Shown: positions 3,807 through 21,189 of the stretch, in pieces
Numbering within the stretch: position 1 is the stretch's first letter
Layout: every line of letters starts with the position of its first letter
Origin: a virus
IMG/VR virus record: IMGVR_UViG_3300027870_000018
Location: 1-24,617 of that record
Direction: 5' to 3' (one strand)
Length of the DNA: 24,617 bases
Position numbers and translations under genes: made by a program
Notes under the pieces: model-generated
The model's input: the letters and a program-made list of their open reading frames with translations, nothing else
Database searches by the model: none
What the model was told of the DNA's origin: nothing

Positions 3807-4667
3807 TTAAGAGAGCGAGAAATCACGGAGCGCGGAGAGCACTTCGGCACCTTGATGGGCCGAAGCGCGTTCGGTGGGATCGCCCGCACCGCTGCCAGCG
3901 GGATCGCCCGCGCTGGACTTGAATTCGGAGATGAGGCGCATGGCCTCTGACTTGGGGATGCCGCTGGCGCGCAGGGCGGCCTCCAGCCGCCGGGCCGCGT
4001 GGGCTTGCGCCTTGGCGTCGCCCTGCCCCACCTGGTCGGAGGGCAGCAGCTCATCCGCGAAGCCTTGCTCGATGGCAGCGCTGCCGCCGATCCAGGACTC
4101 GGCATCCATCAGCTTGGCGATGGCCTTGAGTTCTGCACCGGTGCGGGCCACGTAGATATCGGCCATGGCGGCGTCGAAAGGCTCCAGCCAGTCGGCGATT
4201 TCTCGCAGGTCGATGCGGTTGCCCGCAGCCACCACCCAGCTGTTGTGCACCATGAAGAACGCGGCACGCGCGATCTGTACGTTGTCCCCAGCCATGGCAA
4301 TGATGCTGGCGGCCGATGCCGCCATGCCCAGTACCTTCACGGTCACATCACCCTTGTGCTCACGCAGCAGGTTGTAGATGGCCAGGCCTTCAAACATATC
4401 GCCGCCCGGGCTGTTGAGGTTGACCGTGACCGGGCCGGCACCCAGGGTGCGCAGGGCCGATGCAACGCGCCGAGCGGTGACGCCCTCGCCCGTCCAGTAG
4501 TCGTAGCCGATGGCGTCGTAGATGCTGATGCTGCGGTCTTGCTCATCCTCTGCAGCGGACGCCTTCAGTCCGGGGTTCCAGCGCTCAAAAGCGCGGGGAA
4601 GGATCTCGCTGCGCACGCTGGCGCTTGGCCTGCCCATCGGGGCGGCCGGTAGGTTCTTCACGCTCAT
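3807..4667 (-). CDS. ClpP-like (S14) phage head maturation protease
   Basis: The protein has 286 residues from the ATG at 4667, with an AAAGG site upstream inside the end of the portal gene. The ClpP fold is clear: NLNSPGGDMFEGLAIYNLL near residues 83-101, the nucleophile region GMAASAAS with likely catalytic Ser118, and the catalytic His141 in FFMVHNSW. Acidic residues in EPFDAAMAD (165-170) are candidates for the third catalytic residue. It sits between portal and major capsid, the standard place for the prohead protease, and probably trims the capsid N-terminus. The C-terminal about 80 residues (from QAHAARRLEAALRASG) are a variable tail rich in Ala, Ser and Gly that may act as internal scaffold. 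Confidence 0.92.
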   Translation of the reverse strand: MSVKNLPAAPMGRPSASVRSEILPRAFERWNPGLKASAAEDEQDRSISIYDAIGYDYWTGEGVTARRVASALRTLGAGPVTVNLNSPGGDMFEGLAIYNLLREHKGDVTVKVLGMAASAASIIAMAGDNVQIARAAFFMVHNSWVVAAGNRIDLREIADWLEPFDAAMADIYVARTGAELKAIAKLMDAESWIGGSAAIEQGFADELLPSDQVGQGDAKAQAHAARRLEAALRASGIPKSEAMRLISEFKSSAGDPAGSGAGDPTERASAHQGAEVLSALRDFSLS

Positions 4668-4669
4668 GG

Positions 4670-5980
4670 TCAGCCTTTCTGCGGCTCGGTTTCGTTGCTG
4701 AAGCCCAGCCAGGCGCGTAGCGATGCGCGCGCCTGCTGGTCGGTGGTGGATGCCTGGCCCAGGGCATCCAGGGTGGTCATGGCCGATTGCACGGTGAGTA
4801 CCGCAGCGTTGCCACCCAGGGGGTCGCGGTCTTCCAGCTCGCGCACTTCGTCGCGGGTCAAGATGCCGTTGTTGACCATGGCGGTGTAGAAAGCAGCGCG
4901 GCCAGCGCTATCAGCCCGCAGCAGGCCTTCTACGGCAAACTTTGGGTAGAACCGCGTGCGCTCACCAGGAGTGAGCAGATCCTTGCTGATGGCCTGCTCA
5001 ATGCGCTTGAGCCAGGGGCCGAGCGTGAACATCAGGAAAGCGAGCATCTGCTGCTCGATACCGCTGCCCCAGCTGGTGGACTTCTCGGTGTGGCCCACCA
5101 TCCAGGGCGGTGTGCGAAACCAGCGGCAGATCTCCTCAACACTCCAGCCACGGGACTCCAACAGCTGCACGTCCTTCGGGTTGATGGTCAGAGGCTTGAC
5201 GTCGATGCCGCCTTCGAGCAGCGGGGTCTGGCCCTTTTCCAACAAGCCCAGCACGTTCTCGCGGAAGCTGTCGCGCTGCTCTTTCTTCAGGAACTCTTTG
5301 AACGTGTAGTAGATGTTTTGCAACGCGCCGTTGCGGAACACCTTGCCCGCAGCCTTGTCGGCAGCGATTGCCTGGCCGAATACAGCCGAGCCGTACTGCA
5401 CCACGCTGACGCCGTTTTTGCCATCCAGCGAGAAGCCCGGAATGGTCCAGACACGAGCGGCTGGGATGATGCGGCGTGTGCCGTTGTCGTCGGTGTAGTG
5501 CCACTCCAGGACGACGTTGCCCTGACGCTTGTGAGGGTTCAGCCGGTCTGGGTTGAGAAACACCAAGCCGACCAGGCGCCCGTTGAAGATCAGCTTTTCA
5601 GCACGGCCTGCGCCGCGCAGCAGCATGGCCGAAACCATTGACTCCCAAAACACCGCCGCCGTAGCGTCTGGGTTCGGCACGTCATGCAGAACGCTATAAA
5701 GCGGGTGCTGTTGCGCCAGGCGCTTGCCGCTGTCCCCCGTTCGCTCATAGATGCTGAGCGGCAGCGTGGCGATGGTCTCGGCAATCAGTCGCACGCACGC
5801 CCATACTGCAGAGATCTGCAGCATGGTGCGCGGGCTGATCGTGACGCCGGTGACGTTGTCCGAGCCCATCACCGCGGCCATGCCAGACACATCGCTGACG
5901 CTGACACCGTCGCCGCCGAACAGCGCGGTGACGGCTGCGCGGATGCGGCCTTGTCGGCGTTGTGCGGTTGGTTTCTTCAT
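4670..5980 (-). CDS. HK97-family portal protein
   Basis: The protein has 436 residues and starts MKKPTAQRRQGRIRAAV. The ATG at 5980 overlaps the TGA of the large terminase as ATGA. Family hallmarks are visible in order: SAVWACVRLIAETIATLPLSIYE near residues 50-75, HPLYSVLHDVPNPDATAAVFWESMV near 90-115, and EEICRWFRTPPWMVGHTEKSTSWGSGIEQQMLAFLMFTLGPWLKRIEQAI in the C-terminal half, which is diagnostic for HK97-type portals. The dodecameric portal forms the DNA entry channel and docks the terminase. The length is normal for the family (about 390-450). It ends two bases before the protease gene start. Confidence 0.95.
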   Translation of the reverse strand: MKKPTAQRRQGRIRAAVTALFGGDGVSVSDVSGMAAVMGSDNVTGVTISPRTMLQISAVWACVRLIAETIATLPLSIYERTGDSGKRLAQQHPLYSVLHDVPNPDATAAVFWESMVSAMLLRGAGRAEKLIFNGRLVGLVFLNPDRLNPHKRQGNVVLEWHYTDDNGTRRIIPAARVWTIPGFSLDGKNGVSVVQYGSAVFGQAIAADKAAGKVFRNGALQNIYYTFKEFLKKEQRDSFRENVLGLLEKGQTPLLEGGIDVKPLTINPKDVQLLESRGWSVEEICRWFRTPPWMVGHTEKSTSWGSGIEQQMLAFLMFTLGPWLKRIEQAISKDLLTPGERTRFYPKFAVEGLLRADSAGRAAFYTAMVNNGILTRDEVRELEDRDPLGGNAAVLTVQSAMTTLDALGQASTTDQQARASLRAWLGFSNETEPQKG

Positions 5981-10083: not shown

Positions 10084-10236
10084 CTATGTCATAGGCGCAT
10101 GCAAGGACGTCCCCGCCACTGCACCGCAACGCTGGCCGCGAATCGCGCCTCCAGACAGCGTTGCGCCACAGCGCGTTTGCTGACCCGTGATCTTTTCCGG
10201 CGCCGTGCGCGCCGCTCGCTGATCAGATCGGGTCAT
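10084..10236 (-). CDS. Small hypothetical protein, coupled to the primase-helicase
   Basis: This 50-residue frame starts MTRSDQRAARTAPEKI at the ATG at 10236, which overlaps the end of the large primase-helicase gene by 14 bases. It is supported mainly by a strong ribosome site, GGAGGTGGGGACT directly before ATG. The protein is basic, with two cysteines in a repeated context (RCGATLSGG and RCGAVAG). No family is recognised. It could be a genuine small phage protein or a chance frame; codon pattern alone does not decide. Confidence 0.5.
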   Translation of the reverse strand: MTRSDQRAARTAPEKITGQQTRCGATLSGGAIRGQRCGAVAGTSLHAPMT

Positions 10237-12922
10237 AGTCCCCACCTCCAGGGAACGCGGCCGCACCGGGCCACTCCCCATCGCCATCCGATGGCGCCGG
10301 TCCAGGGCCAGGCCCGGGCACAGGCGCGCCAGATGGCGCGTTGTCTTCGTCATCCTCATCCGGCGGCACCACGGGTGGCCAAACATCCGGCGCCTTGTAT
10401 CCCCGCCGGCGCTGGCCACCACCCTCGCGCTTGTCTTCCCAGCCGTACTTCACCAGCCAGTCACGCACCTGCGTTTCCAGCGGCGCGCTCGACTTGCCCG
10501 GGTCCGTGCCCAGGGCCACCACCAGCTCGGCCACCGTCACAAACGTGGTGTGCTGGTTGATGTAGGCAGCGCCCTTCGCCTCAGCGCTGGGCGCGCCCTG
10601 CCTGGTCAGCAGGTCATACAGCCGCGACTGGATGCCCGTCTCCACCACCCGCTTTTCCTGCTCTGGCAGAAAGTACCGCTGCTCATCCTCCTCAGACGGG
10701 AAGATCTGCGCACCCTGCAGGTACAGCGCCATGGCCTCAGCAAAAAGCTGACCGCGCCACTTCTTCACCCACTCGATGCGCAGCCGCCGCTCCACCCACA
10801 CGGGCCAGAATCGGCGGTTGCCCGTCAGGTCATAGAGGTACTTCTTTTTGTTGGTGGTGCACCAGATCACCACCTGGCGCGGATGCGGCTTCACGTACTT
10901 GCCGTAAGCGCCGCGGTACCGGTCGGTGGTGGTGCTGAAGAACTGCTTTACCGCCTCGCTGTCCGCGCGGCGGAAGGCCGTCATCTCAGACAGCTCGTAC
11001 CCCCACAGGCCCGCCAACTGCTCCATGCCATCCTTGCCGGCGCCGATATCGAAGTGCGTGTCGCTGAAGTAGTCCTTGCCCACCAAGGCCTGCACCAGCG
11101 TGCTCTTGCCCTTGCCGGTCAACCCCTCAAGCACCACCGAGTAATCGAACTTCACCCCCGGCTCGATGGCCCGCGCCACCTGGCCCAGCAGGATGTAGCG
11201 GCCCACCAGCTCCAGGTAACGCTTGAAGCGCGGCTTGGTGGCCAGCACCGCAGGGTCATGCCCCAGCACATGAATCAGCCACTTCTCCAGCCGCGGCGTG
11301 TTGTCCCACTTCAGGCTCTTGAGCCAATCCTGCACCGGGTGAAATGGGTTCTCATCCGCCACCGTCTCAATCGCCTCGGCCAGGGCCGCGCGTGATGGTG
11401 ACTTGATCTTGTATGTCTGCTCCAGGTAGTCACCCAGGCGCAGGTCGTCCTGGTCCTCCACCTGCCCGGCAACATCGCGCCAAGGCCACGCCTTGCGTGT
11501 TGCAGGCCCGTCGCGCAGCTTGTCATACCCCAGGCACCCCTGCAGATCCGGCGCCTTGCGCAACGCCGCCACGATCATCTTGCGATTGGGCTGCAGCTCG
11601 AACACCTTGATCTTGAGCTGCTCAGCGATGAACGCCAGGTGGGCCGAGAACTCGTCCCCATCGTCATCGCTGCCGCCACCTCCAGCGCCCCCAGTGCCAA
11701 CGGGACTATCGATTTTTTTTCCACCACCGCCGCCACCAACTGCCGCTGGTGCCGACACATCGGCCAGCACCGCCCGCGCGGTGCCAAAGTACGCAAGCAC
11801 GCGCTCGCCGTCCCAACCATCCGTCTCGATGGCATCGCGGCAGTCCCAGCCCGAAGGCTTCAAACCCGGCTTGTCAATTGGCAGGAGCTGCACAGTGCAT
11901 CCGTGCGTGTCACGCAGCAACGCGCCGATGCCCAGCATCGCCTTCATGCCCGGTTGCGCGTCAAACTCCAGGTAAGGCTGTCGCTGTTTCAGAGCGTCCC
12001 GCTCTTCATCGGTGTTGCACGCCTTCAGCTCATCACGTGGCGGTTTCTCCCGAAGTGAATCGCAGTCCGGCCACATGATCACCGTGTGCCCAGCCAGCCA
12101 TTCCCACATCGCTTTTTGCCAGGCATTGGAGCCGCCAGGCCAACTCACTACGCAATACACGTCGGGAGCGATGACATCGAGGAGGATCTGCAGACATTCG
12201 GCCTTGCGCTCCCCTTCCACCAGCACCACCGTGCGACCGTCAGGCAACCTGCCGCCAGGAAAATACAGCGGTCGCGGGTCAGCCCAAAAGCGCCACTTCC
12301 AGGTCTCGGTGCCATCGCGCAAGCTGCGCGCATAGGTGTACGGGATAGTCACCTTGTCGCCCGAGCTGTCGATGAAGCGCACGACAAAGCCGTACAGATC
12401 ATCCCCCACTTGGTATCGGGCCGTATGATCGATGCAGTCCTTACTCCGCTCCTTCGCTGGATGGATGAACGTGGGCTGCAGATGGTGGAGGGGCGCGGGC
12501 TTGATGGTCTCCCACTTTTCGGACTCCTTCTGCGGCTTGGGCTCAGGCGCGGGCCGTGGCGGCTTTGGCACAGGAGCCACACCACCCGCAGGCGCCATAA
12601 CCAGCCCGGCCACACTCTCAAGACCGTATTCACGGGCCACCTGCACAGCGGCCTTACCCTTCGACAGATCGTGAATGGCCGCATACAGGTCAAGCAGATC
12701 GCGCCCGCTTTCACCCGTGGAAAAGTCTTTCCAAAGCCCGGTTTCGACATTCACAGACAAGCTGCTGCCGCTATCACCAGCCACTGACCCGCAGGTGTAT
12801 TCCTTGTTTTGCGGGTTGTACTTTCCGTGCGGCAGCCACTCTTCCAGCAATGACAACGCTGTGCGCTGCAGCGCATCCGCAAGCTCTGCCCACTTGATGG
12901 GCGGCAATGGCTCACGGCTCAT
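10223..12922 (-). CDS. Primase-helicase, VapE/D5-like replication protein
   Basis: The 899-residue protein starts MSREPLPPIKWAELADAL. Residues 30-90 (PHGKYNPQNKEYTCGSVAGDSGSSLSVNVETGLWKDFSTGESGRDLLDLY) resemble the N-terminal primase-associated region of phage primases. Around residues 225-290, VVLVEGERKAE and VIMWPDCDS give the Glu and DxD of a TOPRIM domain. After a Gly-rich linker (GGGGGGKK...GGAGGGGSDDDGD, about 395-430) comes the VirE/VapE P-loop helicase: FHPVQDWLKSLKWDNTPRL, Walker A GLTGKGKST (600-608), WGYELSEM and TGNRRFWPV. The last about 45 residues are Pro/Gly/Asp-rich and look disordered. It probably initiates phage DNA replication. It lies in the early operon between the regulators and Q. 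A separate, minimal relative is encoded at 16046. Confidence 0.9.
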   Translation of the reverse strand: MSREPLPPIKWAELADALQRTALSLLEEWLPHGKYNPQNKEYTCGSVAGDSGSSLSVNVETGLWKDFSTGESGRDLLDLYAAIHDLSKGKAAVQVAREYGLESVAGLVMAPAGGVAPVPKPPRPAPEPKPQKESEKWETIKPAPLHHLQPTFIHPAKERSKDCIDHTARYQVGDDLYGFVVRFIDSSGDKVTIPYTYARSLRDGTETWKWRFWADPRPLYFPGGRLPDGRTVVLVEGERKAECLQILLDVIAPDVYCVVSWPGGSNAWQKAMWEWLAGHTVIMWPDCDSLREKPPRDELKACNTDEERDALKQRQPYLEFDAQPGMKAMLGIGALLRDTHGCTVQLLPIDKPGLKPSGWDCRDAIETDGWDGERVLAYFGTARAVLADVSAPAAVGGGGGGKKIDSPVGTGGAGGGGSDDDGDEFSAHLAFIAEQLKIKVFELQPNRKMIVAALRKAPDLQGCLGYDKLRDGPATRKAWPWRDVAGQVEDQDDLRLGDYLEQTYKIKSPSRAALAEAIETVADENPFHPVQDWLKSLKWDNTPRLEKWLIHVLGHDPAVLATKPRFKRYLELVGRYILLGQVARAIEPGVKFDYSVVLEGLTGKGKSTLVQALVGKDYFSDTHFDIGAGKDGMEQLAGLWGYELSEMTAFRRADSEAVKQFFSTTTDRYRGAYGKYVKPHPRQVVIWCTTNKKKYLYDLTGNRRFWPVWVERRLRIEWVKKWRGQLFAEAMALYLQGAQIFPSEEDEQRYFLPEQEKRVVETGIQSRLYDLLTRQGAPSAEAKGAAYINQHTTFVTVAELVVALGTDPGKSSAPLETQVRDWLVKYGWEDKREGGGQRRRGYKAPDVWPPVVPPDEDDEDNAPSGAPVPGPGPGPAPSDGDGEWPGAAAFPGGGDYDPI
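11713..11720 (-). other. A8 homopolymer in the primase-helicase linker
   Basis: On the coding strand there is a run of eight A (codons GGA AAA AAA ATC) at the Gly-rich linker between the TOPRIM and helicase halves. Such runs can cause transcriptional slippage. Loss of one A would shift into a frame that ends at 11575, leaving a primase-only product with a short alien tail. Whether this occurs is unknown. Confidence 0.35.
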
Positions 12923-14066: not shown

Positions 14067-14333
14067 ATGACTTCAGACCAAGCGACCGAAGCGGAACCAG
14101 AGAAGACTCCAAACTTCACGCTGTACATATACGGCGGGGCAGAACCTGCCGACCTGTTTATTGGCAACAACTGGGTAACTGGGCCCATGCTCGTAGGCGA
14201 CCGAATCAAAGACCCCGCCACTGGCCGCCTGTTCGAGGTGGTGAAGCGGACATGGCTGTCCGGCAAAGCACGGGTGGCCAACATGGCTATACACATCAAA
14301 GAACTGCCACCCGAAGAAGACGACCTTCGCTAA
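14067..14333 (+). CDS. Small conserved-looking hypothetical protein, opposite strand
   Basis: The protein has 88 residues from the ATG at 14067 (MTSDQATEAEPEKTPN), with AAAGGG six bases upstream; the longer frame from 13854 is low-complexity. It reads like a folded small beta-rich protein: FTLYIYGGAEPADLFIGNNWVTGPMLVGDRI, then ATGRLFEVVKRTWL and VANMAIHIKEL. No family name is known to me. It runs against the early leftward operon, and its 3' end overlaps that of the minus-strand gene 14296-14559 by 38 bases. This convergent overlap and opposite direction suggest it is expressed separately, possibly in the lysogen. Confidence 0.65.
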   Translation: MTSDQATEAEPEKTPNFTLYIYGGAEPADLFIGNNWVTGPMLVGDRIKDPATGRLFEVVKRTWLSGKARVANMAIHIKELPPEEDDLR

Positions 14334-14559
14334 CGCCTTCAAGCAGCTCGCGCAGCTGCTTCACATCTGCGATCAGTGACGAGAGTTCTGGCGTTTCGGA
14401 GTCGAACCCGCAAGCCACCGCCTGCATGCCCGGCAGTGCTTTTGGAACCGTCCCTGCAGACCGCGCATCACGCCACTGTCGAGCGGCGCGCAATTCGGCT
14501 TCATATGCGATACGCCGTAGACGGGCAGACGGCTTTTCGATTGCAGTAGTGCTACGCAT
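14296..14559 (-). CDS. Hypothetical protein after Cro
   Basis: The protein has 87 residues, starting MRSTTAIEKPSARLRRIAYEAEL at an ATG that overlaps the end of the Cro-like gene by eight bases. It is mostly helical: an Arg/Ala-rich helix (AELRAARQWRDA) and a C-terminal SSLIADVKQLRELLEG. No domain is recognised. Its tight coupling to cro suggests an early regulatory or host-directed role. The 3' end lies opposite the end of the plus-strand gene at 14067-14333. Confidence 0.6.
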   Translation of the reverse strand: MRSTTAIEKPSARLRRIAYEAELRAARQWRDARSAGTVPKALPGMQAVACGFDSETPELSSLIADVKQLRELLEGVSEGRLLRVAVL

Positions 14560-14803
14560 GGGCCACTTCCTGGGTTTGTTCGCACAGATCAGGCCAAATC
14601 CGCGCCCATCGTGGGCAAAGCTGCTTGCGGGTTACCCTTCCATCCGTCAGGCGTTCAATCTCCCAACAGTGCTCGACAGGCACCCCCCGCTTCTTCCAGT
14701 TGCCTATCGCGGAAGGCGTTACACCAAGTCGCTCGGCAAGTTCATTGCGCCCGCCAGCGACGCACGCAGCGGCCTCATCAAGGGGGTGAAGGAGTGTTGA
14801 CAT
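14552..14803 (-). CDS. cro: Cro-like repressor (YdaS-type HTH)
   Basis: The protein has 83 residues (MSTLLHPLDEAAACVAGGRNELAERLGVTPSAIGNWKK). The pattern 'A...GG...LA..LGVtpsaI.nWk.rG.P.e.c..IE..t.G.vtr..L.P..w..iWP.L' is the YdaS/Cro family found in proteobacterial prophages. It is divergent from the cI-like gene, and operator-like dyads lie between them. The start codon has no ribosome site. A promoter (TTGATT-N18-TAATAT on the minus strand) would begin transcription at or within a base or two of the ATG, so the message may be leaderless. It opens the early leftward operon that leads to CII, the primase-helicase and Q. Confidence 0.82.
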   Translation of the reverse strand: MSTLLHPLDEAAACVAGGRNELAERLGVTPSAIGNWKKRGVPVEHCWEIERLTDGRVTRKQLCPRWARIWPDLCEQTQEVAHA

Positions 14804-14809
14804 TCGGGC

Positions 14810-14839
14810 ATATTAACACGTTACGTGTTTATCAATCAA
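14810..14839 (-). promoter_or_regulatory. Putative cro / early leftward promoter (pR-like)
   Basis: On the minus strand TTGATT (14839-14834) and TAATAT (14815-14810) are 18 bases apart. Operator-like dyad O1 (14815-14829) fills the spacer and touches the -10 box, and O2 overlaps the -35. Transcription would start near 14803-14804, at the cro initiation codon. Confidence 0.6.
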
Positions 14840-14866
14840 CACCACGTGTTGACACAGAACGTGTTC
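14815..14866. promoter_or_regulatory. Operator cluster between cro and cI (three dyads)
   Basis: Three related sites share ACGTGTT in one orientation. O1 is AACACGTTACGTGTT (14815-14829), a perfect 6-3-6 dyad. O2 is CAACACCACGTGTTG (14837-14851), also a perfect dyad but with a shorter spacing between AACAC and GTGTT. O3 is GACACAGAACGTGTTC (14851-14866). They lie between the divergent repressor genes and are the likely CI and Cro binding sites. Two more related sites occur at 15975-16013. Confidence 0.7.
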
Positions 14867-14877
14867 AATCCAGCCCA

Positions 14878-15333
14878 ATGAAAACAGTGGGTGAACGGAT
14901 ACGGCAAGCGCGGGAGCATCGCGGCCTCTCGGGGGAGGACCTTGCCAAAAAGGTTGGCTACAAAACCCAGTCCGGCATAAGCAACCTTGAGAACAGAGGG
15001 TCAGGTCATGGCGGCGAGAAACTCACGAAGATCGCTGAGGCGTTGGACTTTTCGGTGGAGTGGTTTTTGAATGGACCGGACACCCTCGACATGTCAACGG
15101 TCAAACGATTCCACAGCTACAAGGTTGCCAATGCACCAATTCCAATTTCGGTGGAGGACCAGCGCGGCAAGGATTGGGGCACACCCACCGGCCGAGCATC
15201 AGCGCTTCTAAACAAGCTTAGCGACCAGGGGTTGCTTCGCGCTATTGAGTACTTGGAGATGCTGGCAGAGAAGTACCCAAGGAACGGCGACAGCGCGGGT
15301 GATCATGTTCCCGCGCGCCTCGCGACGTCCTGA
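14878..15333 (+). CDS. CI-like XRE-family repressor without peptidase domain
   Basis: The protein has 151 residues. Residues 3-62 form a canonical XRE HTH: VGERIRQAREHRGLSGEDLAKKVGYKTQSGISNLENRG...LTKIAEALDFSVEWFLNG. The remaining about 85 residues are short and contain a helical segment (ASALLNKLSDQGLLRAIEYLEMLAEKY) but no S24/LexA peptidase domain: no Ser-Lys pair setting or Ala-Gly cleavage site can be found. It would hold lysogeny by binding the dyads on either side of the cI-HIRAN pair. The ATG at 14878 has no clear ribosome site. A TTGACA (14849-14854) lies upstream but lacks a matching -10, so its own promoter may need activation. The HIRAN gene follows 19 bases downstream. Confidence 0.85.
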   Translation: MKTVGERIRQAREHRGLSGEDLAKKVGYKTQSGISNLENRGSGHGGEKLTKIAEALDFSVEWFLNGPDTLDMSTVKRFHSYKVANAPIPISVEDQRGKDWGTPTGRASALLNKLSDQGLLRAIEYLEMLAEKYPRNGDSAGDHVPARLATS

Positions 15334-15352: not shown

Positions 15353-15928
15353 ATGAGCAGACAGCGGAACGTCATCGATGTAGGGCTAGCACTGGTGTAT
15401 GGCATCTTGGCCGCACTGTGCCTGCCAATGGTTGTTACCGCAGCTACAGCAGCACCTGTGATGGTGGCTCCCCTGGTGGTTTCAGCGGGCCTGTGTTTGA
15501 TCTTTGGCCGACTCGCAATAAAGCGCTGGAAGAGCAGCGCAAAAGGCCTACAAAGCGAGTCCGCCCAGACAGATGCAGAACCGCGCGACCTTCAGCCAGG
15601 AGAGTTTTTTACGCGCGTTGTTGGCAGCAGCCATGCGAACTCAGATGGCAGCGACCGTCAAGAATCAATCCGCAAGTACTGCACTCCAGGGGCACCTCTC
15701 ACGATGGCGAGGGAACCGCACAACAGCTTCGACAGCAACGCCATCGCGGTGCGTTGTGGCGGCACCCAGATCGGATACCTCACGGGTGAAATTGCCGAAA
15801 AATTCGCCGCCGACGTGGACTCGGGCAAGCTCGTTCTATCGGGCAGAGTGACCAACATCACAGGGGGCACTCAAGACAAGCCCACCCTGGGAGTCAACAT
15901 TGTGTTGACCAGAACACAGAACCCCTGA
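15353..15928 (+). CDS. Membrane-anchored HIRAN-domain protein
   Basis: The protein has 191 residues. Two hydrophobic segments (about residues 8-28, VIDVGLALVYGILAALCLPM, and 36-54, VMVAPLVVSAGLCLIFGRL) are followed by KRWKSS and a polar linker. Residues about 86-185 form a HIRAN domain: FTRVVGSSHAN, then the signature REPHNSFDSNAIAV (120-133), then IGYLTGEIAEKFAADVDSG and TLGVNIVL. HIRAN domains are known in HLTF/Rad5-type proteins, where they bind DNA ends. The gene follows cI at a short distance on the same strand and lies between the two operator clusters, the place of lambda rexAB. A lysogeny-expressed exclusion or defence role is inference from position. Its weak ribosome site is AAAGAAG. 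Confidence 0.8.
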   Translation: MSRQRNVIDVGLALVYGILAALCLPMVVTAATAAPVMVAPLVVSAGLCLIFGRLAIKRWKSSAKGLQSESAQTDAEPRDLQPGEFFTRVVGSSHANSDGSDRQESIRKYCTPGAPLTMAREPHNSFDSNAIAVRCGGTQIGYLTGEIAEKFAADVDSGKLVLSGRVTNITGGTQDKPTLGVNIVLTRTQNP

Positions 15929-15974: not shown

Positions 15975-16013
15975 AACACGCAACGTGTTGACTGAATAAA
16001 CACATATCGTGAT
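15975..16013. promoter_or_regulatory. Second operator cluster upstream of the plus-strand operon
   Basis: AACACGCAACGTGTT (15975-15989) is a perfect 6-3-6 dyad that matches O1 between cro and cI at all but two central positions. AACACATATCGTGAT (15999-16013) is a degenerate copy 24 bases further. The first overlaps the -35 and the second covers the spacer and part of the -10 of the promoter at 15988-16016. CI or Cro bound here would shut off the operon that starts at 16046. Confidence 0.7.
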
Positions 16014-16016
16014 AAT
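15988..16016 (+). promoter_or_regulatory. Strong sigma-70-type promoter (pL-like)
   Basis: TTGACT (15988-15993) and GATAAT (16011-16016) are 17 bases apart, giving five of six consensus matches in each box. Transcription would start near 16023, about 20 bases before the first ATG. It is embedded in two operator-like dyads and drives the long plus-strand operon. Confidence 0.8.
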
Positions 16017-16045: not shown

Positions 16046-16801
16046 ATGCATACCCACCCATCCCCCAGTGCACACGTGTGCACTACCCCCGCCGAACTCC
16101 GCGAATGGCTGCAGGGCCTGAAGTGGGACGGTACTCCCCGCCTTAACAAGTGGCTCCCCCAGGTGCTGGCAACGGCACCGCACGTGCGCTCTGCCTGGCG
16201 CCAGCGCTGGTACTTGGAGCTGATAGGCCGCTACATCGTGCTGTCCCATGTGGCCCGCGCGATGAACCCGGGCTGCCAGCTCGACTGCAGCATCGTGCTG
16301 GACGGCCCACAGGGCACTGGCAAGTCACGGCTGGTGCAGACCCTGGTGGGCAGCGAGCTGTACTCCGCTGCGCCGTTCAACGTCCGGGGCAATGCAGGCG
16401 CAACGCTGCAGGGCGTCTGGGCCTATGAGCTGACAGAGCTGGACGCCTTCCGCCGCGCCGACCGCGAAGCCGTCAAGGCCCTGCTGACCAGCACCAGCGA
16501 CCACTACCGCGCCCCCTACTCTCGCCAGGAAGCGACGTATCCCCGCCAGTGCGTGATCTGGTGCACCACTGGCAGCGCCCGGTACCTGCGGGCCGAGATC
16601 GGCACCCGCCGCTTCTGGCCCGTGCACGTACCCGCGCCCGTCGATATCGACTGGATCGAGGAGAACCGCGCCCAGCTGTTCGCCGAGGCCACCCAGCGCT
16701 TCATGAAAGGCGAGAGCTACACCCCGTCGCGCTTGCAGGAGATCTTGGTCATCGAGCCCGAGTACGCACGCCGGGTGCGGCAGGAAGGCGGTGTGGCATG
16801 A
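16046..16801 (+). CDS. Minimal VapE-like P-loop helicase
   Basis: The 251-residue protein starts at the ATG at 16046, with GAGGG five bases upstream. It aligns along most of its length with the helicase half of the large primase-helicase encoded at 10223-12922: LKWDGTPRLNKWL against LKWDNTPRLEKWL, YLELIGRYIVLSHVARAMNPG against YLELVGRYILLGQVARAIEPG, Walker A GPQGTGKS (87-94), WAYELTELDAFRRADREAVK, and GTRRFWPVHV. It has no primase half and no C-terminal tail. The first 15 residues contain SAHVCTT, encoded by the 18-base palindrome. It is first in the repressor-controlled operon. It may help replication, regulate the larger relative, or act in phage-phage competition; the sequence does not decide. 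Confidence 0.85.
   Translation: MHTHPSPSAHVCTTPAELREWLQGLKWDGTPRLNKWLPQVLATAPHVRSAWRQRWYLELIGRYIVLSHVARAMNPGCQLDCSIVLDGPQGTGKSRLVQTLVGSELYSAAPFNVRGNAGATLQGVWAYELTELDAFRRADREAVKALLTSTSDHYRAPYSRQEATYPRQCVIWCTTGSARYLRAEIGTRRFWPVHVPAPVDIDWIEENRAQLFAEATQRFMKGESYTPSRLQEILVIEPEYARRVRQEGGVA
16067..16084. repeat. 18-bp perfect palindrome AGTGCACACGTGTGCACT
   Basis: This is a perfect 18-base inverted repeat with CACGTG at the centre, just inside the first gene of the plus-strand operon. It is the best member of a family found in unrelated genes. Its central CACGTG resembles the centre of chromosomal parS sites (TGTTTCACGTGAAACA), though the arms differ. Confidence 0.75.
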
Positions 16802-18515: not shown

Positions 18516-18880
18516 GCAATACCCGCCCCACCCGCGGCACCGACAGCGTCACGCTGTCCCAGCCCAACACAACCAGCGTGCACATCGTGCGCACCAAGCC
18601 CGCGCCGCTGCGCCAGGCCGGCCTGCATGACATCGGCGGCACCAACGTGTCGGTAACCGGCAAGGCCCTGGTCAGCCCGCTGCCGTCGCAGGCAGAGCTG
18701 CTGGCCCGCCTCAAGAGCGAGCGGCTGGAGCTGGCCACCAGCGACATGCCCGTGCGCAACAGCACTCAGCGGGGCGATCCGTACACATGCCCCGAGCTGC
18801 GCACCCAACCCTACCGCCGCGGCTCCGCAGATGCCTTGCGCTTGCCCAGCCGCACCAGTTTCACCAACGACAAGGCGTGA
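18512..18880 (+). CDS. Hypothetical protein
   Basis: The protein has 122 residues, starting MSNTRPTRGTDSVTLSQPN at an ATGA overlap with the kinase gene. It is polar, rich in Thr, Ser, Pro and Arg, with one possible helix (PSQAELLARLKSERLEL, about residues 57-73). It appears largely disordered and carries no recognised domain. Its place between the kinase and the ParB-like gene is the only functional clue. Confidence 0.6.
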   Translation: MSNTRPTRGTDSVTLSQPNTTSVHIVRTKPAPLRQAGLHDIGGTNVSVTGKALVSPLPSQAELLARLKSERLELATSDMPVRNSTQRGDPYTCPELRTQPYRRGSADALRLPSRTSFTNDKA

Positions 18881-18885
18881 TCACC

Positions 18886-21189
18886 ATGGAAACCACTCAA
18901 CACGACACCCCCACCACAGGCCAGGAAATGCGCATGGTGGAGGTGGCCCTTATCGAAGAAAGCCTGTCCAACCCGCGCAAGCACTTCAACCAGGACCGCC
19001 TGCAGGAGCTGGCAGACAGCATCCGGGCCAGCGGGGTGCACCAGCCCATCCTGCTGCGCCCGCTGCCTGGCAGCCGCGTCGAGGAGACCAGCTTCAAGCC
19101 ACTCGCGCCAAATGCCGCTTGGCCGCTCCATCGCTCGAAGCGCGACGTGCGCCCCACATACGAACTTGTCGCCGGCGCCCGCCGCCTGCGAGCCTGCAAA
19201 CTTGCCGAGGTGGCAGAGATCCCCGCCATGATCCGCGAGCTGACCGACGAGCAAGCGCTGGAGATTCAAGTCATCGAGAACCTGCAGCGCGAGGACGTCA
19301 CAGAGCTGGAGGAAGCCGAAGGCTACGAGGTGCTTATGCGCACCGGCAACATCACGGCCGACCAGGTGGGCGCCAAGATCGGCAAGAGCCGCAGCTACGT
19401 GTACAGCCGCCTCAAGGTGCTGGACATGTGCCATGCAGGGCGCCAGGCCATGCGCGAGGGCAAGCTCGACTTCAGCAAGGCCCTATTGGTGGCCCGCATC
19501 CCCAACGAAAGCCAGCAGTTCAAGGCCATCAAGGATCTGACCGAGACCGACTATGAGGGCGAGCCGCGCATCGGTGCGCGCCGAGCTGCAGCCTACATCC
19601 GCGAACACTACATGCTCGCGCTGGACAAGGCCTCCTTCTCGCGCACAGACGCGGACCTGCTGCCCGCTGCCGGCGCGTGCGCCACCTGCCCCAAGCGCAC
19701 TGGCGCCAACCCCGAGCTGTTCAACGATGTGAAGAGTGCAGACGTGTGCACTGATGCGCCGTGCTATCACAAGAAGGAAGAAGCGCACAGCCAGCAGCTC
19801 GCAGCAGAGGCCCGCGAGCGCGGCCAAACCGTCATTGCAGGCAAGGAAGCCGAGGAGCTGCAGGTCAACAGCTGGGGACCTGTGCCAAAGCTCAAGGGTT
19901 ACCGCCGCCTGGACCACGCCGACGACAGCCCGACCGACCAGCCACTGCGCAAAATCATAGGCAAGCAAATGAAGGCCGAGGGCATCGAGCCCACCCTCAT
20001 CGAGAACCCCCGCAAGAAAGGCGACATGATCGCCTGCCTGCCGAACGAGGTGGTGCTGCGCTTGATCAAGGCCGTTGAAGCCCAGGCCAAAGCACCCGAG
20101 GCCACGAACGTCAGCAAGGAAGTGCGCGAGCTGGCCGACACCAAGAAGGCCAAGGCCGATGCCCGCGCCGCCGCCCAGTACGAACAGGCCTGGCGTGACG
20201 AGCTTGTGGCCACTACGTGGGCCGAGGTGAAGTCGGGCGACGTCGATTGCTTCACCATCGACGTGCACCGCTACCTGGTCCAGCAAGAGGCTGCGCGCCT
20301 GTCCGTTGAGCAAGCCGAGAACATCGCCGTGCGCCTGGATCTGGGCAAGGTCGGCGCGCACAGCGCAGTCATCGACTACGCCAAGACCACGCCCACCCCC
20401 GAGCGCTTGCACCTGCTCATCATCATGGAGCGCACGTCCAGCGCAAACGACTACGGCTATGCAGGCCGCCAAGCCAATGCCGGCCTGATGTTGGTGGCAC
20501 ACGCCGCGCTGCAGGACAAACTCCCTGTGGTGATCCGGGATCTGAAGGCCGAGGCCAAGGCCAAATACATCCCGAAGCCCGTGAAACCTGCGGCCCCCAA
20601 AGGTACTTCTACCCCTAGTCCCGCTGCGCAAGCTACTACTACGCGCGAGGGGAAAGGGGAAAAGACCAAGGGCAAAAACAACCCCGCTGCGCAGGCCCGC
20701 GCTACCGCGCCCAAGACCACGAAGGCCGAGGCCAGCGCCCAGATCGCAGCCGAGCTGGCGGCGCTGGAGACCCATGAGCAGGCGCCTGCGGCGCAGGGCA
20801 ACGAAGGCGCCCCCGCTCCTGCGGGCGGGGACGCGGTTGACGCCGCGCCCAGCAACGACGCCGGCGCGCCTGCCCCGTCGGTCGCGAGGACCAAAAGCAA
20901 GGCCGAGAGCACATCGACGGCGACCGACTCCGCCGCGGCTACCCCTGGCCAGGACGGCGCAGACGCGAAGACCGGGGCAGCAGTGTCTGGGGGCGTGCTG
21001 GCTGTCGGGGCCCGAGTGAAGGTCAACGCCACCGCGCGCGGCCCCAAACAGGCCCCGCACGTGGGCAAGGAAGGCCATGTACTGCGCTGCATCAACCCGC
21101 TGACGTGGGAGGTGTCCATCCCCCGCGAAAAGCGCAGCGTGCCATGGGTGGTGACCTATCACGTGACGGAGCTGGAGGTGCTGGCATGA
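18886..21189 (+). CDS. Large ParB/RepB-family protein without ParA
   Basis: The protein has 767 residues from the ATG at 18886. The N-terminal ParB core is clear: LIEESLSNPRKHFNQDRLQELADSIRASGVHQPILLRP (22-59), a charged insertion, ELVAGARRLRACKLA (93-107), VIENLQREDVTELEEAEGY (129-147), then an HTH, NITADQVGAKIGKSRSYVYSRLKVL. A Cys cluster follows (CATC near 265 and VCTDAPC near 286), as in other phage and integrative-element ParB proteins. Residues about 560-700 are an Ala/Pro/Lys-rich linker, and the last about 60 (VGARVKVNATARGPKQAPHVGKEGHVL...) look like a KOW/SH3-type barrel. No ParA-type ATPase is in the window, so it may act as a DNA-condensing or regulatory protein, or use a host partner. 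Confidence 0.88.
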   Translation: METTQHDTPTTGQEMRMVEVALIEESLSNPRKHFNQDRLQELADSIRASGVHQPILLRPLPGSRVEETSFKPLAPNAAWPLHRSKRDVRPTYELVAGARRLRACKLAEVAEIPAMIRELTDEQALEIQVIENLQREDVTELEEAEGYEVLMRTGNITADQVGAKIGKSRSYVYSRLKVLDMCHAGRQAMREGKLDFSKALLVARIPNESQQFKAIKDLTETDYEGEPRIGARRAAAYIREHYMLALDKASFSRTDADLLPAAGACATCPKRTGANPELFNDVKSADVCTDAPCYHKKEEAHSQQLAAEARERGQTVIAGKEAEELQVNSWGPVPKLKGYRRLDHADDSPTDQPLRKIIGKQMKAEGIEPTLIENPRKKGDMIACLPNEVVLRLIKAVEAQAKAPEATNVSKEVRELADTKKAKADARAAAQYEQAWRDELVATTWAEVKSGDVDCFTIDVHRYLVQQEAARLSVEQAENIAVRLDLGKVGAHSAVIDYAKTTPTPERLHLLIIMERTSSANDYGYAGRQANAGLMLVAHAALQDKLPVVIRDLKAEAKAKYIPKPVKPAAPKGTSTPSPAAQATTTREGKGEKTKGKNNPAAQARATAPKTTKAEASAQIAAELAALETHEQAPAAQGNEGAPAPAGGDAVDAAPSNDAGAPAPSVARTKSKAESTSTATDSAAATPGQDGADAKTGAAVSGGVLAVGARVKVNATARGPKQAPHVGKEGHVLRCINPLTWEVSIPREKRSVPWVVTYHVTELEVLA
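19735..19752. repeat. Near-perfect copy of the 18-bp palindrome within the ParB-like gene
   Basis: AGTGCAGACGTGTGCACT differs from the perfect 18-base palindrome at 16067 at a single position. It encodes SADVCT within the Cys cluster of the ParB-like protein, so protein constraint could partly explain it. Confidence 0.6.

Follow-up and report, generated by a model that had tools for sequence, protein, structure and literature searches.

A membrane-HIRAN gene in the Rex-type slot of a temperate-phage immunity module, a probable cargo site beside the repressor

To characterise a gene lying directly behind a phage repressor, we analysed a 24,617-bp IMG/VR virus record, a temperate-phage fragment referred to throughout as the window, together with relatives of its immunity region. 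Judged by its sequence contents across these relatives, the Rex-type slot of this repressor-operator module is, with good support, a cargo site, and the HIRAN gene that occupies it would be cargo outside the immunity circuit: the slot holds the HIRAN gene in the window, a zinc-ribbon membrane gene in a sister phage, and nothing in a third relative. The gene also lies closely behind the repressor gene and in the same orientation, arguing for expression in the lysogen, and we consider cargo status and lysogen expression, taken jointly, to be highly probable. Across several bacterial phyla, unrelated phages have similar genes next to the repressor, and this recurrence hints at a shared function in the lysogen, of which exclusion of other phages is the most likely. 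What is new here is the Rex-type slot as a cargo site, revealed by relatives of the same repressor-operator module; a pairing of this kind had been named before, and the window gene is one variant of it.

Leftward from the switch, the window encodes Cro-like and CII-like proteins, an 899-aa VapE-type primase-helicase, a Q-like protein, terminase, portal, head protease and head protein. A second operon points rightward, and its first gene past the right operators encodes a 251-aa VapE-like helicase domain (16046..16801, + strand; PF05272, E 1.2e-56). Two VapE-type helicase genes are therefore present in one phage, one per early operon (10223-12922 on the - strand and 16046-16801 on the + strand). 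The rightward operon also encodes an 800-aa ParB-like protein (18787-21189, + strand), and a small ORF (MTSDQATEAEPEKTPNFTLYIYGG...; 14068-14331, + strand) lies in the interval from cro to the CII-like gene, on the strand opposite that of their operon. The Cro-like gene (14552..14803, - strand), of the YdaS/P22 Cro family (PF15943, E 2.4e-18; PF14549, E 6.4e-10), opens the leftward early operon and is divergent from the repressor gene (14878..15333, + strand), which a profile match assigns to HTH_3 and which encodes 151 aa. The first-pass annotation had called the latter cI. It is indeed a repressor in the cI position, but since it carries HTH_3 and no S24 peptidase domain was matched in the 151-aa protein by Pfam profile search, on sequence grounds it is not a lambda-type self-cleaving CI. 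A Burkholderiales-type host is suggested by two observations: the region resembles the DNA of Acidovorax and Variovorax phages, and the Burkholderiales-order genome sample contains a relative of the repressor.

The membrane-HIRAN gene (191 aa; 15353..15928, + strand), defined by ORF, Pfam, hydropathy, AF2 model and fold alignment, begins 19 bp past the repressor stop on the same strand. No promoter or terminator was found on the + strand of this 19-bp gap, and given the operon-like spacing we predict a transcript shared by cI and the HIRAN gene. Two operator clusters flank the gene pair and have in common the palindrome AACACGT-N-ACGTGTT, the exact half-site of which (ACGTGTT/AACACGT) is confined to these two clusters within the whole window. 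The left cluster, equivalent to lambda OR (14815..14865), consists of AACACGTTACGTGTT at 14815, AACACCACGTGTT near 14838 and GACACAGAACGTGTT at 14851, with AACACCACGTGTT being shorter than the palindromes at 14815 and 14851. The right cluster, equivalent to lambda OL (15975..16013), consists of AACACGCAACGTGTT at 15975 and AACACATATCGTGAT at 15999, and is overlapped by a promoter-like TTGACT-17-GATAAT (15988..16016, + strand; one found versus 0.6 expected in shuffles), which would drive the rightward early operon. In lambda, the interval from cI to OL holds rexA and rexB. With the order cro (leftward), OR, cI and HIRAN (both rightward), OL and rightward early operon, the window is topologically equivalent to lambda and the analogy of placement is exact, in line with the Rex position originally proposed for this gene.

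The sister phage (L063) has a repressor 57% identical to that of the window and the same Cro-like gene. Its operators at 3935 and 3970, and at 5041 and 5065, are the same sites with spacings matching the window, including a conserved 24-bp right spacing. Its slot is occupied by a gene on the opposite strand encoding a zinc-ribbon and a membrane segment (L063:4445-4987, - strand). In two further relatives (L278 and L279) the repressor is 43% identical to that of the window, and in L279, from a Burkholderiales-order genome, the right operators start about 20 bp past the repressor stop, leaving the slot empty. Operator-pattern scans of viral contigs yielded no further module beyond L063, and the corresponding neighbourhood of Acidovorax phage Aval had no comparable slot. 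As side observations, the zinc-ribbon gene of L063 would have its own promoter near the right operators, and a zinc-ribbon gene is likewise found downstream of cI in a Pseudomonas Detrevirus (L280).

Profile search and structure prediction agree on the HIRAN domain that had been recognised from the letters alone. PF08797 (HIRAN) covers residues 83-171 (E 4.7e-13; 49.2 bits versus a cut-off of 24.7), and AF2, given 17 sequences, models residues 81-190 at a pLDDT of 92-98 and places helices 4-32 and 38-70 ahead of the domain. The best solved Foldseek matches were the HLTF HIRAN domain and the bacterial HIRAN protein lp_0118; VIA-align over residues 81-191 of the window protein gave Z 12.2 (rmsd 2.1, 95 residues) versus HLTF HIRAN (6kcs) and Z 14.4 (rmsd 2.0, 99 residues) versus 3k2y. 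Codons of the domain (residues 83-189) extend over 15599..15919 (+ strand). The two membrane segments noted earlier also hold up, being called here from hydropathy together with modelled helices: hydrophobic segments at residues 10-28 and 33-51 (Kyte-Doolittle means 2.44 and 2.25) coincide with the helices of the model. This hairpin is encoded at 15380..15505 (+ strand) and is followed by the basic stretch GRLAIKRWKSSAK; with basic residues past the second helix, a cytoplasmic HIRAN domain is the favoured topology.

The DNA-end pocket of HLTF (PMC4666394) may be partly retained. Residues Y93, D94 and N91 of its dinucleotide pocket align with F126, D127 and N124 of the window protein, whereas Y72 and F142 are not kept (about H94 and P176, by alignment), so that DNA binding by the window HIRAN domain is not assured. 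Loss of F142 is common among bacterial HIRAN domains and was taken as a hint of single-stranded DNA binding (PMC8262856). A Pfam search matched no HipS or kinase domain in the window protein, and its neighbours are the repressor and VapE. The Foldseek and VIA-align fold matches included nothing resembling RexA or RexB, which does not in itself exclude such a structure. PADLOC matched a candidate family through its HIRAN part, and only weakly.

A single-protein tblastn with the window protein (P0001) across viral and genome contigs returned no relative. Alignment A1 was too diverse as a query, and relatives were found with smaller alignments; alignment A4, run phylum-wide against 398 genomes, gave no match in a set that lacked a positive control and is hence uninformative. 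HIRAN was present in 130 of 399 genomes in the Burkholderiales-order sample, and 76 of the 130 retrieved ORFs carried a hydrophobic N-terminal segment, which reads as a signal peptide. We therefore rejected the combination of membrane segment and HIRAN as a rare feature in its own right, and with such a signal-peptide family on chromosomes it is repressor adjacency that is informative. None of the 76 ORFs had a repressor-like HTH gene directly upstream, and many phage HIRAN proteins without membrane segments sit in other modules. The common chromosomal family (L069-L198), with its putative signal peptide and the motif ILLQNSPLAGFRYYEGKxLWxEMKVGD, has a HIRAN domain that is apparently exported, which is odd for a domain binding DNA ends.

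Repeated placement beside repressor genes, anticipated in the first-pass annotation, was found. The closest IMG/VR HIRAN relatives of the window protein (L012-L014, about 41%) have a C-terminal membrane helix, and two of the genes (L012 and L014) overlap an S24-type CI gene at its end; the same locus occurs as a prophage in an Anaerolineaceae genome (L047). A helix-turn-helix regulator is followed by a HIRAN protein with two helices in L015, and in L276 CI is followed after 13 bp by a HIRAN gene whose product has its hairpin at the N-terminus, the domain order of the window protein, and then by integrase. Small HIRAN genes without membrane segments lie behind repressor-like genes in L254 and L011, the upstream gene of L011 having an HTH match just under the cut-off. 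HIRAN is also encoded between repressor and integrase in Streptococcus phages 23782, phiARI0578, Javan348/IPP29, Javan349, Javan584 and 315.3, and in Staphylococcus phages JS01 and P954. Some of these Streptococcus and Staphylococcus lysogeny-module proteins have membrane segments; those of Javan240, 315.3, JS01 and P954 are without them. In P954 and JS01 (L241 and L242), the N-terminal half of the protein looks strand-rich and perhaps PH/GRAM-like.

The HIRAN proteins of phages 23782 and phiARI0578 are 88% identical, with an S24 CI in the former versus an ImmR-ImmA pair in the latter. Membrane-HIRAN genes accompany three repressor types, indicating that they do not depend on a single mode of induction. 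Mapped on a phylogeny of 102 HIRAN domains, adjacency to a repressor required seven changes, at least three of them forced by well-supported branches; several independent placements beside repressors are likely, on a tree that is weakly resolved. Among IMG/VR HIRAN ORFs, repressor adjacency was seen in 5/10 with a hydrophobic segment versus 3/38 without (p = 0.006, Fisher test; p = 0.056 once near-copies were collapsed), counts that are rough, having been assigned by hand with a home-made HTH profile.

Slot variation, the same placement beside unrelated repressors, the HIRAN fold, its aligned pocket residues and the precedent of RexAB all point, by analogy, to a protein that binds DNA ends at the membrane and thereby excludes superinfecting phages or aborts infection, a reading to which we give somewhat less than an even chance. 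As lysogenic cargo in the Rex slot, the gene would be expressed in the lysogen and be dispensable to the immunity circuit. Its helical hairpin would anchor the protein in the inner membrane, with HIRAN on the cytoplasmic side, where the domain may bind phage DNA, whether incoming or replicating, at its free or single-stranded ends. Bound DNA would then be held at the membrane, or membrane damage triggered, as is done by RexA with RexB in two proteins. For the window gene we infer the shared transcript, the topology, DNA binding and exclusion alike. Several points count against exclusion: no phenotype is known for any such membrane-HIRAN protein, the pneumococcal ThaL being only named in the main text that describes it; some lysogeny-module HIRAN proteins have no membrane segments and so manage without an anchor; T4rII exclusion does not strictly require DNA binding by RexA; and the PADLOC matches are weak. 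The wider proposition, that temperate phages of several phyla independently gained a single-chain RexAB-like slot protein that captures incoming phage-DNA ends and blocks or aborts infection, we consider unlikely in that full form.

A role in the lysogeny switch is doubtful, although it has arguments of its own: the protein might sense ssDNA ends or DNA damage and tune induction or excision of its own prophage via the repressor or recombination. With a window repressor lacking an S24 peptidase match, the damage signal could be sensed elsewhere; HIRAN domains are DNA-end binders, RexA shifts the lambda switch toward lysis, and SzaL, of a pneumococcal lysogeny module, alters competence-driven induction, sensitising the prophage (PMC12637031). 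However, self-cleaving CI and ImmAR regulators are both found alongside the same HIRAN protein, the L279 module works, or has worked in the past, without any slot gene, and such a role has no need for membrane anchoring. A block on incoming transforming or conjugative DNA, guarding the prophage from recombinational removal, appears improbable. Transformation-driven deletion does select on pneumococcal prophages, and thaL is named in the study reporting this (PMC12637031), but the main text there gives no ThaL data, and the idea presupposes natural competence in the hosts of the window phage, L012 and L276. It is more improbable still that a host HIRAN gene without a phage-specific role was captured, perhaps from the putatively secreted Burkholderiales family with its frequent hydrophobic N-termini, as the tree sets the window protein outside that clade (100/94 support) and nearer to small phage or mobile HIRAN proteins (L190, L206, L012, L011), its two-helix hairpin is not a cleavable signal, and none of the 76 chromosomal ORFs is directly behind a repressor-like HTH gene.

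If exclusion at the membrane is indeed the function, prophages would be using HIRAN, a domain known mainly from studies of eukaryotic fork repair, as a recurrent defence module, and exclusion genes could be sought in the Rex slot generally. Membrane capture of phage-DNA ends, if true, would define a class of prophage defence with, so far, candidate members only. One immunity module, found with a HIRAN gene, with a zinc-ribbon membrane gene and empty, provides a three-way natural experiment.

Several known systems bear comparison. For HIRAN domains in Hip modules, a role in detecting the DNA ends of phages entering the cell has been proposed (PMC8262856), and HipN and HipL resemble the window protein as bacterial HIRAN proteins with that proposed sensor role; the window protein, however, has no HipS-like or kinase domain and no adjoining kinase gene, and kinship with Hip antitoxins was rejected on these grounds. 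It shares with HLTF HIRAN (4S0N, 4XZF, 6KCS) the fold (Z about 12) and perhaps part of the DNA-end pocket, but is without helicase or RING, has lost Y72 and F142, and has gained a membrane anchor. RexA-RexB of lambda and RexAB of Pseudomonas putida resemble the window gene in position from cI to OL and, as predicted for the window, in joining a DNA-binding function with a membrane protein and in being made by the lysogen; in P. putida, DNA binding by RexAB is coupled to membrane damage (PMC12894663). They are two proteins, whereas the window has one ORF with HIRAN and no second slot gene, and no sequence or fold match of the window protein to RexA (RdgC-like) or RexB was found.

The nearest counterpart is pneumococcal thaL, named for its pairing of membrane and HIRAN in the lysogeny module of prophage phiRMV8 (PMC12637031), so that the earlier statement that no described system has this pairing does not stand; annotated Streptococcus and Staphylococcus phages carry HIRAN as well. 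The main text of that study mentions thaL once, without a functional test there. That study also names szaL and spaL, for zinc proteins of lysogeny modules, SzaL affecting induction by competence (PMC12637031), a possible parallel, by name only, to the zinc-ribbon gene of L063. ThaL-like proteins resemble the window protein in combining membrane segment(s) and HIRAN in one chain encoded in a lysogeny module with a repressor, and in phages 23782, Javan349 and Javan584 the helix hairpin comes first and HIRAN last, as in the window (phiRMV8 thaL being assumed identical to the 23782 gene). They differ in that HIRAN domains from Firmicutes cluster apart with branch support, the window and pneumococcal ThaL-type domains falling on opposite sides of a 97/93 branch, in a tree with long end branches and few columns; no similarity between the window and Firmicute proteins was seen outside HIRAN. 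The site also differs, the Firmicute gene lying between repressor and integrase and the window gene between two operator clusters of a Burkholderiales-like phage. Pneumococcal ThaL thereby gains a cross-phylum comparison set.
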